The position numbers were made by a program, and so were the translations under genes. From NCBI GenBank assembly GCA_947454705.1, contig CANGKZ010000007.1:1-64000 (forward strand): DNA of 64,000 nucleotides. Reading direction: 5' to 3'. The stretch is from Verrucomicrobiota bacterium (GTDB lineage Bacteria; Verrucomicrobiota; Verrucomicrobiia; Limisphaerales; UBA9464). The notes beneath the pieces are model-generated. The model ran no database searches. It worked only from the letters and a program-made list of their open reading frames with translations, and was not told where the DNA came from. Shown in pieces: positions 133 through 17,731 of the stretch (the stretch's first letter is position 1; each line of letters begins with the position of its first letter).

Positions 133-212
133 GGGTTGAAGGGTTGAAGGGTTGAAGGGTTGAAGGGTTGAAGGGTTGAAGGGTTGAAGGGTTGAAGGGT
201 TGAAGGGTTGAA
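133..212 (+). repeat. Tandem array of ten GGGTTGAA octamers
   Basis: Exactly ten head-to-tail copies of the 8-base unit GGGTTGAA fill 133-212. The unit is not a multiple of three, so reading frames through it give a meaningless octapeptide periodicity on the other strand (FNPSTLQP). The array forms the left end of the composite module described at 133-426. Degenerate copies recur at 397-426, 12213-12244, 17432-17463 and 17645-17700, always between genes or at a gene end. Confidence 0.95.
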
Positions 213-426
213 GGGGGAGAGACGCGGTTGCATCCCGTATGGAGTACCGCGTTTACGCGGCTCTGCTGTTGGACCCAGAATCCAGCGGAGGGAATAATTT
301 TAACCCCCGGTACGACCACACCCGCGCCTCCCCGAACCGTCTTAAGACGGGACTCCAAACGAAAGAAGATCCCTTCAGGTTTGCGTCGGAATCCTCTTCA
401 ACCCTTCAACTTTTCAACCCTTCAAC
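133..426 (+). repeat. Composite repeat module, left copy
   Basis: In order the module holds the GGGTTGAA array (133-212), a 24-base spacer, palindrome A with its flanks (236-275, core CCGCGTTTACGCGG), a variable stretch, palindrome B in reverse (324-363, core CCGTCTTAAGACGG), a second variable stretch, and a reversed array of TTCAACCC-type octamers (397-426). The same order recurs in reverse complement at 17424-17708. Palindrome A plus flank differs at about two positions in 39 between the copies, and so does palindrome B, while the stretches between them have diverged. The reversed array overlaps the recD stop codon. Together with bases 1-132, where I see nothing else, it accounts for the 421 bases before the first gene. 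Confidence 0.85.
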
Positions 427-2305
427 TGCCGCGCGCCGCGCGCGTCCACAGCGCCTCATTCAACCCCGAGGCCCGCTCCACGCGGCGTTCAATGGCCGTG
501 CGCAGCAGTCCGGGGTCCGACCACACCTCCACGCCGGACCTCGCCCGCGTAATGCCGGTGTAGATCAATTCACGGGTCAGCAGCGGAGTGTCGCGTTCGG
601 GCAAGATCATCAGCACGCGGTCGAGCTCCGAGCCCTGGCTCTTGTGAACGGTCATGGCGTACACCGTCTCGTGCTCGGGAAGTCGCGCCGGCATCAGGGC
701 GCGAATTCCTCCGGAACCGTCCGGGAAATAGACCCGCAGCTCTCCGTTGGAATCCGGGAGACAGATCCCGATGTCGCCATTGAACAACCGCAGCTCGGGC
801 TCGTTCCGGGTGATCAACACCGGACGCCCCGGATACCAACCGCCGGCGTGCACGGTACCAGAAATGAAACCCGCCTCGCGGAGGAGCGCTTCGCAAAGGG
901 CGTTCAGGGATTCGACCCCGTACGGACCCTTTCGAACCACGGCGAGGATTCGGAATTGTTCCACCGCCTTCAGTGCCACTGCCGGATCGCGCTGCCGGGT
1001 GAGCGGACCGTAGGCCGCGAGGATGGGGCCGCGGAGTTCGGATCGTAGCTGGGCCGCCGCGGGGAGTGGATGCCACGCGCCCGGCGTGTTGGTCAGGATT
1101 CGAAGGGCTTCGCCCGCCTGACCCGCGTTCACGGCACGGCTGAGTTCCGACAGGCCGGCGGCCGCACCAAAGCGCCAGTTGCGACGCAGCTCGACAATGC
1201 AGTCCGCAAGACCGGGACTGGAGCACGACTCGTCCACTTCTGCTGCCGGCAATTCGGCCGAAGTGACCACACGTGCTTCCGCGGCGAATGGAGCCGAGTA
1301 GCGCCGCGATTCAGTTCGACCGCAGAGTTCGCCCAGCACGTTGCCCGCTTCGACCGAGGCCAGCTGATCCTTGTCGCCGACCAAAATCAGCCGCGCTCCC
1401 GGGCGCAGCGCCTGCACGAGACGCGTCATCAGGGCGAGGTCCACCATGCTGGCCTCGTCCACCACCACCACGTCGGCGGGCAGGGGATTGTCCGCGTTGT
1501 GACGAAACGCTGGCGAATTGGGAATCGATCCCAGCAGGCGGTGCAGCGTCGTGGCTGCGGCGGGCAGGCGGGCCTTGAGGGCGTCGGAGCAGGGCAGGTC
1601 GCGTCGCGCGCGGTCGATCGATTCGGCAATGCGCGCGGCGGCCTTTCCGGTGGGGGCGCAGACCGCGATGTCGAGCGGTTGCGGATCATGCGCCTCTAGC
1701 AATGCCGCCAGGAGCCAGACCACGGTGCGGGTCTTGCCGGTGCCCGGACCTCCGGTGATGACGGTCAACGGACGGGTCAGCGCCATCCAGGCGGCGATCT
1801 TCTGCCAGTCCGGATCCGATCCGGTGCGCGGAAACAGGCGTTCCAAAATTGATTCCATCGCCCCGTCCCGCGCCGGAGCGGGCAGTCGAAGTCGATGCTC
1901 GATCCGTTTTCGCAGGGCGGTGGCGAGGTTCTGCTCGTGCGTCCAGTACCGGTGCAAATACAGGCGATTCGCCGCATCGAGAATGAGCGGGGCAAACTCG
2001 CCCGGGGAGCCGACCACTCCGCTTGCTTTCAGGGCGGCAATCCACTCACCCAGCGCAGGAAGCCGGGTAGGTTCAGCGTTGTCCACGGTTTCGATCCCGC
2101 ACTCGTGCAGCGGTCGGCCCGCCACCGAGGGAAGCAGGAGGCAGGTGTGGCCTTCGCTCCGACGACGGCTCGTGAGTGCGGCCGCGAGGACCAATTCGGG
2201 TCCGCTGCCCGGGGCCAGCTCGTGCAGGAGCCGTGCGAATTGCACGTCGAGTTCGGAGAACCCTTCGAGCCCGGTGGCGCCATTCGGCAACGCGGTCGGG
2301 TTCAT
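422..2305 (-). CDS. recD: RecBCD enzyme subunit RecD (exodeoxyribonuclease V alpha)
   Basis: 627-residue SF1B helicase, the 5'-3' motor of RecBCD, which unwinds and processes double-strand DNA ends. An N-terminal region of about 170 residues precedes Walker A (GGPGTGKT, about 185-192). Walker B with VVVVDEASMVD, motif III with LVGDKDQLASVEAG and the C-terminal AMTVHKSQGSELDRV and YTGITRAR motifs follow. Length matches RecD of E. coli (about 608) rather than the longer RecD2. The ATG at 2305 is chosen because it overlaps the recB stop as ATGA (2302-2305), a sign of translational coupling; the open frame reaches further into recB but that part resembles nothing. The stop codon is supplied by the reversed octamer array at 397-426. 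Confidence 0.93.
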   Translation of the reverse strand: MNPTALPNGATGLEGFSELDVQFARLLHELAPGSGPELVLAAALTSRRRSEGHTCLLLPSVAGRPLHECGIETVDNAEPTRLPALGEWIAALKASGVVGSPGEFAPLILDAANRLYLHRYWTHEQNLATALRKRIEHRLRLPAPARDGAMESILERLFPRTGSDPDWQKIAAWMALTRPLTVITGGPGTGKTRTVVWLLAALLEAHDPQPLDIAVCAPTGKAAARIAESIDRARRDLPCSDALKARLPAAATTLHRLLGSIPNSPAFRHNADNPLPADVVVVDEASMVDLALMTRLVQALRPGARLILVGDKDQLASVEAGNVLGELCGRTESRRYSAPFAAEARVVTSAELPAAEVDESCSSPGLADCIVELRRNWRFGAAAGLSELSRAVNAGQAGEALRILTNTPGAWHPLPAAAQLRSELRGPILAAYGPLTRQRDPAVALKAVEQFRILAVVRKGPYGVESLNALCEALLREAGFISGTVHAGGWYPGRPVLITRNEPELRLFNGDIGICLPDSNGELRVYFPDGSGGIRALMPARLPEHETVYAMTVHKSQGSELDRVLMILPERDTPLLTRELIYTGITRARSGVEVWSDPGLLRTAIERRVERASGLNEALWTRAARGS

Positions 2306-12212: not shown

Positions 12213-12300
12213 AGGTTGAAGGGTTAAAAAGCTGAAGGGTTGAAGGGGAGTTCAGCCCTGGCGGCGCGGCTACGCCGCCGATACTTCAAAACGACCAGCG
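12213..12300 (+). repeat. Degenerate GGGTTGAA array and GC-rich hairpin
   Basis: Four degenerate octamers (AGGTTGAA, GGGTTAAA, AAGCTGAA, GGGTTGAA) occupy 12213-12244. They are followed at about 12258-12277 by an inverted repeat with arms GGCGGCG and CGCCGCC around CGGCTA. It sits between the beta-helix gene and convergent yajQ. It lacks the palindromes and the opposite array of the complete modules, so it looks like a fragment. Confidence 0.6.
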
Positions 12301-12390
12301 TCAGCGCCGTCGTTGCCAGCTTGGAAGCACGTCGGCGGAAAACCCCCAATCGCCCGCTCATCGATTGAACCGGCGCTCTGAACCGTTGGC

Positions 12391-13967: not shown

Positions 13968-14142
13968 AACAAAGCGAACGATTCCGGCTGGAGAGATGAA
14001 CCGCAGAGGCGCTGAGGCGCGGAGAGGCTGAAGCAATGCAGATGCTGGATGCTGGATGCGTCTGTCTTCTTCGTATGGAGTACCGCGTTCACGCGGCTCT
14101 GATAGGCGTTTACGAAGTTGGACCTTGGACCCTCGTCCTCGA
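13968..14142. repeat. Intergenic repeats with solo palindrome A
   Basis: This gap holds a short GA-rich stretch (14000-14030), GATGCTG repeats at about 14040-14058, and a solo copy of palindrome A at 14072-14101 (GGAGTACC then CCGCGTTCACGCGG). The flank GTTGGACC that normally follows the palindrome comes only after about 15 extra bases, ending near 14124. Octamer arrays and palindrome B are missing, so it is a partial or decayed copy of the module seen at 133-426 and 17424-17708. Confidence 0.7.
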
Positions 14143-17337: not shown

Positions 17338-17731
17338 GCCTGATTGGAGGGAAACACCCCCGAGCGCAGCAAGCGAATTGCTGAGAAGATGTGACGCTCC
17401 GCGGTTCTCGGCTCCTTTAACCCGGAAACGGCGGTTGAAGGGTTGAAAAGTTGAAGCGTTGAAGGGGTATCCTGCGCTGGCGCGAGGGATTTCTCATTCG
17501 TTCGGAGTCCCGTCTTCAGACGGTTCGGGGAGGCGTGTCTCGCGGCATGCAGACGGTTGATTTCCAACCGTTCGATGGCCCCGCGTCCAACAGCGGAGCC
17601 GCGTAAACGCGGTACTCCATACGTGTGAGCGAATCGTCCGCCGCTTCAACCCTTCAACCCTTCAACTTTTCAACCCTTCAACTTTTCAACCGTTCAACCG
17701 CCGTTTCCCGGCCGAATCCACCGCGTTCCGC
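17338..17731. other. Intergenic region dominated by the repeat module
   Basis: No gene is supported in these 394 bases. Bases 17338-17423 are the upstream region of the amidohydrolase operon and should hold its promoter. Bases 17424-17708 are the complete right copy of the repeat module, and 17709-17731 is the tail after the Ppx/GppA stop codon. Confidence 0.8.
17424..17708 (-). mobile_element. Composite repeat module, right copy, MITE-like
   Basis: The ends are a perfect 16-base inverted repeat, GGAAACGGCGGTTGAA at 17424-17439 and its complement at 17693-17708. Inside are a GGGTTGAA-type array (17432-17463), palindrome B (17497-17535, core CCGTCTTCAGACGG), palindrome A in reverse (17587-17623, core CCGCGTAAACGCGG) and a TTCAACCC-type array (17645-17700). 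Compared with 133-426 the whole arrangement is reverse-complemented. It encodes no protein, so if mobile it would depend on an enzyme in trans. No clear target-site duplication is visible. Confidence 0.65.

Follow-up and report, generated by a model that had tools for sequence, protein, structure and literature searches.

The segment at 17421-17711, which lies between two genes, is one of about 100 copies of a small mobile-type element in its own genome. We regard it as very probably a chimeric miniature transposon, in which a REPIN and octamer arrays would be enclosed in an IS1380-type MITE and moved with it by a DDE transposase acting in trans. The first-pass annotation of the window (the whole stretch of 64,000 nucleotides that was analysed) had proposed a mobile element, non-autonomous and about 285 bases long, and this proposal is borne out by dispersed copies, TIRs in common with an intact IS, 5-bp duplications, and a shorter interval in two congeners; it is from these sequence comparisons that we infer movement. 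Two points go beyond the annotation: the ends appear to be those of an IS1380-type (DDE) system, and the palindromes appear to form a REPIN that belongs to another system, of Y1/HUH (RAYT) type. The features of the window copy, and of a second copy near the contig end, are as follows.

17421..17711, no strand: composite element, 291 bp from TIR to TIR (TIR pair; shorter interval in the congeners G001 and G007)
17421..17436, + strand: left TIR CCCGGAAACGGCGGTT, three differences from CCTAGAAACGGCAGTT (consensus ends also on the IS1380-type IS at L386)
17434..17467, + strand: left subterminal GTTGAA octamer array, four units (sequence reading)
17504..17523, + strand: REP1, with GGAG tag, 2 bases, 5-bp stem and loop TTCA (84 exact palindromes genome-wide)
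17524..17598, no strand: REPIN spacer, the middle 35 bases being the least conserved part measured (copy alignment)
17599..17618, - strand: REP2, inverted, with GGAG tag, stem CCGCG/CGCGG and loop TTTA (genome matches)
17644..17698, - strand: right subterminal octamer array, seven units (sequence reading)
17696..17711, - strand: right TIR CCGGGAAACGGCGGTT, three differences from the consensus (TIR pair)
133..431, - strand: second composite copy, near the contig end, its outer TIR mostly lost, with TTCAACTGCCG left at 421-431 (sequence reading)
133..212, + strand: ten perfect octamer units in an array near the contig start (sequence reading)
241..260, + strand: REP2 of the second copy (sequence reading)
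337..356, - strand: REP1 of the second copy, loop TTAA, with one loop base changed, CCGTCTTAAGACGG (sequence reading)
397..426, - strand: octamer array of the second copy (sequence reading)

The window copy has 16-bp TIRs with one mismatch between its two ends, and at 291 bp it is too short for a transposase gene. Its inverted arms extend over 43 nt with 93% complementarity (17421-17463 and 17669-17711). REP1 and REP2 face each other with their GGAG tags outside, and each consists of GGAG, two bases, a 5-bp stem and a 4-base loop. Folded as RNA, the 291-nt unit reaches -149.1 kcal/mol, against -99.6 +/- 4.9 in shuffles (z -10.1); the REPIN core alone (17498-17632), folded as single-stranded DNA, is unexceptional (z -1.7). 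No Rfam family matched the window or four loci at gathering scores.

The architecture described by the annotation is present: the 16-base perfect inverted ends at 17424-17439 and 17693-17708, the inward octamer arrays, both palindromes, and a reverse-oriented module at 133-426 in which both palindromes and both arrays are found. The inverted ends stand as such, but the element extends beyond them by 3 bases at either end. The octamer arrays, which had been taken for the element ends, are subterminal, with the TIRs outside them. The window holds two other related features: an array-armed element with another core (AACGACCAGCGTCAGCGCCGTCGTT) at 12215-12314, a kind of core that also occurs in 296-bp TIR-bounded copies at L191 and L370, and a lone REP2-like palindrome with a GGAG tag at 14077-14096, with no REP1, array or TIR adjoining.

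Copies in the window's own genome and in its congeners

A search for further copies, as the annotation had suggested, returned many that are dispersed in the genome from which the window comes (G000; 5.45 Mb, 80 contigs, 95.7% complete). The numbers lie far above chance. The first palindrome occurs there 84 times exactly, against 0 for a reversed control; the second palindrome with its flank is found at 158 places with at most 3 mismatches (control 1), and the octamer pair at 533 places with at most 2 mismatches, overlapping ones included (control 0). Among the matches listed, REP1 occupies 99 different places (122 counted) and REP2 100 (158 counted). These listed places form 124 groups, of which 119 were examined, 3 lie in the window, and 2 (the start of C28, and C80) were left out. 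The copy sample was thus the window plus 120 stretches, 119 with listed palindrome places and one with a Y1 gene on C26; because it was drawn from listed palindrome places, copies with decayed palindromes are under-represented in it. Seven contigs (C7, C11, C25, C29, C50, C60 and C66) have their start in or close to an element or array; the assembly probably breaks at these sequences, and copies by contig ends may be incomplete.

Among the matches listed, both palindromes follow each other in order in 113 readings, 103 of them spaced 102-104 bp; at least two of the 113 (L110 and L169, minus strand, both of the armless class) are overlapping readings of tandem clusters. Arms accompany 102 of the 113. 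On the same listed matches, 43 readings have octamer arms on both sides, 32 a left arm together with class B (our name for a longer right part in place of the octamer arm), 16 a left arm only, 7 a right octamer arm only, 4 a right class B part only, and 11 neither. The same arm test applied to 2757 random positions gave 22 left arms, 26 right arms and 13 class B parts. An open frame spans 403 bp at 8 of 111 elements (among the matches listed) and at 1643 of 2000 random windows, which indicates an intergenic location. The arm sequence itself had no match in a scan of GTDB genomes, a set that may leave this genome outside.

In 75 copies the left arm and the linker can be aligned free of gaps and stand at a constant distance from the REPIN, with identities of 0.86 (arm) and 0.83 (linker). 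On the left side, the fusion of arm and REPIN therefore most likely happened once and was then copied. The annotation held that the palindromes are under constraint. Their own conservation is inflated, because the copies were found through them, but the claim survives on parts outside the search patterns: GGAGTC is conserved at 0.989 and the 12 bases that precede REP2, of which one belonged to a pattern, at 0.964, better than the linker (0.826) and the REPIN spacer (0.740), which argues for constraint on the REPs. Compensatory stem changes were not found among copies in this genome; REP1 had 12 one-sided changes that kept the stem and 22 that broke it, and REP2 had 1 and 16.

At the window locus, the flanking matches are 189 bp apart in G001 and 197 bp apart in G007, compared with 476 and 479 bp in G000. 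The interval is therefore shorter by 287 and 282 bp, or about the 285 bp of the annotated element, and these are the empty sites that the annotation had proposed to look for; the insertion site cannot be placed to the base because the congeners' intergenic DNA is too diverged. G006 has longer, dissimilar DNA at this locus, and in G002 to G005 the left neighbour of the element was unmatched. The annotation had also considered that all copies might be syntenic in relatives, with no empty sites. The further copies and the empty sites came out for mobility, but one other copy is syntenic: by eye, an armed copy occupies what seems to be the same gene-flanked site in G000 (L014/L107) and G001 (L313), from which we conclude that the arm-REPIN fusion probably predates their split.

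Armed copies are few in the loci seen from the congeners. None of 5 distinct REPINs is armed in G007, a small sample of loci, and 1 of 4 in G001, this one being L313, itself found by similarity to the window element; a count of congener arms over 9 readings in G007 and 6 in G001 took pairs from both strands. By eye, array-like words stand on both sides at L089 (G001) and a single GTTGAA at L072 (G007), so arms are not confined to the window's own genome.

Inverted ends, target duplications and an intact IS

The family consensus TIR is CCTAGAAACGGCAGTT, of 16 bp. In 36 class B copies similarity drops sharply after ...GGTTCGAACTGCCGTTTTTAGG, that is, at the TIR, and intact left sides start with CCTAGAAACGGCAGTT or close variants; we therefore place the ends of the element at the 16-bp TIR outside the arrays. 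The end 19-mer is found at 185 places in G000 with at most 3 mismatches (control 4). Only 17 REPIN-bearing TIR pairs at no more than 4 mismatches per end stand against the 113 readings (among the matches listed), so most copies are without at least one recognisable TIR.

The loci examined contain 61 TIR pairs, of which 38 were kept; pairs from 450 bp upwards and alternatives with an end in common were dropped. Exact 5-bp direct repeats flank 21 of the 38, compared with a mean of 8.5 when flanks were shuffled (maximum 15 in 1000 shuffles), a mean that is already high because TTGAA or TTCAA flanks are partly expected from landing in arrays; the left flank is TTGAA or TTCAA in 26 of the 38. No other length from 2 to 10 showed a notable excess of direct repeats in these 38 pairs. 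The excess appears in REPIN-bearing pairs (11 of 17 against 5.7 in shuffles, maximum 10 in 2000 shuffles) as well as in REPIN-less ones (10 of 21 against 4.3, maximum 10). One class of REPIN-less units measures 190 bp and has 15 copies. Most duplicated words in G000 are TTGAA/TTCAA, which the octamer arrays repeat; others are ATGAT (L120, with a REPIN), TTCAT (L359) and TTCAG (L175). The target duplications for which the annotation proposed a comparison are thus found across the family, but not at the window copy, whose flanks are TTTAA and CCGAA.

The same ends occur on an intact IS. In G046, from another family of the same order, the locus L386 contains a 1714-bp IS whose two ends are CCTAGAAACGGCAGTT and whose outer flanks both read TTCAC, so that the consensus TIR agrees with both IS ends at 16 of 16 bases. 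Its transposase (ORF 1231-2793, 520 aa) matches PF13701 with an E-value of 7e-26. A search with this IS1380-type profile gave matches in 21 of 58 genomes and 0 in G000 (in the 95.7% complete assembly of 80 contigs). Around the genes of the other 29 PF13701 loci examined we found no such inverted TIR pair at up to 3 mismatches over 12 bases. The link from TIR to transposase is suggested by one intact case only, in another family of the order.

TIR matches with at most 1 mismatch number 91 in G000, 35 in G039, 26 in G019, 6 in G051, 4 in G007, and 0-2 in the others, with any match in 18 of the 58 genomes. Of the 5 genomes that have 4 or more TIR matches, 4 contain PF13701, as do 17 of the other 53. 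In other genomes, exact 5-bp repeats accompany 8 of 15 TIR-pair rows, L421 and L429 being one element of G023. Same-TIR elements with such repeats occur in G051, G013, G030, G023 and G039 (TTCAT, TTGAA, GTAAC, TTGAA, TTCAT, CTGAA, TTTAC). Including L386, 5 of 8 other-genome duplications have the form TTSAN, and the rest are GTAAC, CTGAA and TTTAC. The outer unit fits a MITE: it is bounded by TIRs, without a transposase, with ends in common with an autonomous element and with target duplications across the family, and at the window locus its presence varies between G000 and two congeners. The copies were presumably made by an IS1380-type transposase.

Octamer arrays are also found where the TIR is not. 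G006 and G016 have 51 and 270 array matches, respectively, and 0 TIR matches at no more than 1 mismatch; six loci of G016, G006 and G002 carry mostly single-orientation arrays. Because arrays occur without the TIR, they are no hallmark of the element. The TIR-less arrays at L276 (G016), L289 (G006) and L267 (G002) look like an independent tandem-repeat feature of the lineage. The arrays are probably a target which the element came to carry as well. It is speculation that they evolved as a landing pad, and we considered as well that the 8-bp arrays could be footprints of repeated insertion and loss, a 5-bp target plus 3 bases.

The REP pair and RAYT genes

By sequence, the two palindromes make up a REPIN: they are inverted REPs, and the spacer between them is less conserved. 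The same REP family surrounds RAYT genes in two congeners. G007 encodes on C114 a RAYT of 229 aa (NF047646, E 6e-22; its 78.1 bits fall just short of the cut-off of 80, and for Pfam Y1 the value is only 0.008), and G001 encodes on C187 a protein 82% identical to it. The G007 locus (L314) has 5 REPs, two single ones on one side of the gene and an inverted pair with a further REP on the other. The G001 locus (L315) has 8: one side of the gene carries a complete pair and two singles, the opposite side two complete pairs. All 13 have paired stems and belong to the REP family of the window element.

With a pattern that fixed the tag (GGAG or GTAG), the loop and the outer stem bases, the inner three stem bases pair in 36 of 38 REP readings from G001, G006, G007 and G017, as four stem types, GTC/GAC, GCC/GGC, GGC/GCC and GCG/CGC. 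Stem compensation is seen only between REP types and species. The tag is GGAG in G000, and GTAG in 4 of 18 REP readings at G001 loci and in all 5 from G017, the pattern allowing GGAG and GTAG only. Departures from GTAG are reported for some Pseudomonas REPs in the text available of Nunvar 2010 (PMC2817692). Single exact REP1 palindromes in G018, G028, G009, G027 and G048 have no GGAG or GTAG tag and look like chance matches.

The annotation had proposed a search of the genome for a REP-type (Y1) or other transposase. Both kinds exist, a Y1 RAYT with the same REPs in congeners and an IS1380-type transposase at L386, but neither was found in G000. The best match there to the congeners' RAYT, on C20, is 35% identical, and no close RAYT was found. 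This RAYT-like gene (L328, G000:C20:490-978) was rejected as a partner, there being no REP of the window-element pattern in the locus; by eye, the gene has its own inverted GGAGTGCGG-type palindromes around it, and a similar GGAGTGCGG-type palindrome stands beside an octamer array at L104. The Y1 gene at L069 (G000:C26:62346-62693) was rejected too: it is IS200-like (NF033573, 77.5 bits), and neither REP1 nor REP2 occurs within 1600 bases when as many as 4 mismatches are allowed. Beside it lie palindromes around GAGTCCCGGAGGGACG and AGCCCAGGCCTGAAGGCCTGGGCT.

Among the other Y1 loci of congeners and relatives examined, a REP1-like match was found only at L262 (G039:C27), where the same 14-base palindrome (GGAGCGCCGTCTTCAGACGG), complete with a tag, lies 184 bp from a different RAYT-like gene. 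Near another Y1 gene, at L261 (G007:C39), an inverted pair of GGAGCGCCGGCATCCTGCCGG forms a further REPIN family.

Alternative explanations and known systems

In the mechanism that we propose, a DDE transposase would act in trans and cut at the 16-bp MITE ends, and the unit would insert with a 5-bp duplication of a TTNAN-like target. A REPIN, with REPs of a kind putatively bound by a RAYT, would have become enclosed between MITE ends with TTGAA-rich arrays and been co-copied from then on. New copies would often land and nest in octamer arrays, because the arrays consist of the commonest target word. An extension of this mechanism, possible but doubtful, is that the REPIN changed its vehicle: it would be spread by DDE transposition in an IS1380-type MITE, possibly beyond the loss of its own tyrosine transposase from this lineage, while the TTGAA arms would act as a landing pad that the element brings along, directing new copies to old ones and away from genes. 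Its odds are lowered because arms are not confined to the window's own genome.

A 5-bp target duplication next to defined TIRs is a mark of a DDE transposase, and it bears on each of the other explanations that we weighed. The RAYT, with its Y1 chemistry of single-strand hairpin copying, might copy the whole composite, the IS1380-like ends being passengers. The direct RAYT-REP linkage in the congeners, the folding of the unit as one long hairpin, and the superior conservation of the REP parts, with the caveat of ascertainment, all fit such a process. We nevertheless judge it very unlikely, since the 5-bp duplications adjoin defined TIRs, REPIN-less MITEs with the same TIRs are duplicated too (10 of 21 against 4.3 in shuffles), and no close RAYT was found in G000. 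It is most improbable that the element is an immobile intergenic hairpin that terminates transcription or stabilises mRNA, was dispersed through recombination and is retained by selection: insertion is shown both by the target duplications and by the reduced interval in G001 and G007. The intergenic location, the strong RNA hairpin, the conserved REPs and the armed copy at the same site in G000 and G001 (by eye) would all be expected of such a hairpin. A host role of the REP hairpins may come on top of mobility.

The outer part could instead be immobile, if a RAYT repeatedly inserted the REPIN into pre-existing octamer arrays or palindromes that were targets only. Octamer arrays without the TIR do exist in G006, G016 and G002, and REP dimers inside longer palindromes are described for A. 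variabilis and H. neapolitanus (PMC3733652, text available in part). Repeated independent REPIN insertions are contradicted by the linker, which has a constant length and a mean consensus identity of 0.83 in 75 copies, and the TIRs lie outside the arms, with the 5-bp duplications outside the TIRs; we consider this course of events very unlikely.

REPINs have been described as elements duplicated by RAYTs. If the chimeric transposon is what we take it to be, about 100 REPINs reside in a DDE-type MITE in a genome whose assembly yielded no close RAYT, and REPINs could spread, not only persist, without one. E. coli genomes without a RAYT still keep REPINs, though fewer, according to the portion available of PMC8049555. 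The element would separate what copies REPINs from what keeps REPIN hairpins intact, with one mobile parasite apparently spread by another. It would also be a natural case of an element carrying arrays of its own commonest target word, in which self-targeting becomes testable.

ISEcp1 ends begin with CCTAG, and so do the ends here. The IS1380 family (ISEcp1 group) further shares with our element the 5-bp target duplication, and has a transposase of family PF13701, as on the IS at L386; the unit here differs in having no transposase gene, and its ends are matched to that unnamed IS. For ISEcp1 itself, an IS1380 member, a 5-bp target duplication TATGA is given in the accessible part of PMC2887853. 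BIMEs are likewise an intergenic mosaic of REPs and other short motifs. To our knowledge they are not defined by any TIR or target duplication, whereas the element here has TIRs and target duplications across its family.

REPIN/REPtron systems, as far as the available text of Bertels and Rainey 2011 (PMC3116915) and Nunvar 2010 (PMC2817692) describes them, resemble the inner unit in the inverted REP pair, the less conserved spacer, the high copy number and the intergenic location, and in the same REP family around a RAYT gene, which here is found in congeners. They differ in the tag, GGAG in G000 instead of GTAG, and in that most copies in G000 lie inside a TIR element, with no close RAYT in the assembly. 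Marinomonas REPs (REPtron Mb, group 3) have the same plan of a tetranucleotide, 2 bases, a perfect 5-bp stem and a 4-nt loop; the loop of REP Mb is TTTA, and TTCA and TTTA occur here (PMC8266576, in its accessible part).

The BrickBuilt MITE of Porphyromonas gingivalis (PMC4596501) has an internal tandem-repeat array, an intergenic location and TIRs that resemble the ones on an IS from its species, but its repeats are 23 nt long, its ends are of IS5 type, and it has 19 copies; the available part of the description mentions no internal REPIN. The nearest precedent we found comes from A. variabilis, H. neapolitanus and T. roseum, where longer palindromes regularly enclose REPs or their dimers (Rocco and colleagues, PMC3733652). 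In the portion available, those palindromes are worded as targets, with no mention of a TIR family, a transposase or a target duplication. Among the open-licence papers listed in our literature searches, no title or abstract opening described a REPIN inside an IS1380-type MITE. The element would join known parts in a way that is new, with a REPIN multiplied at high copy number within a MITE of IS1380 type, in an assembly that yielded neither transposase.
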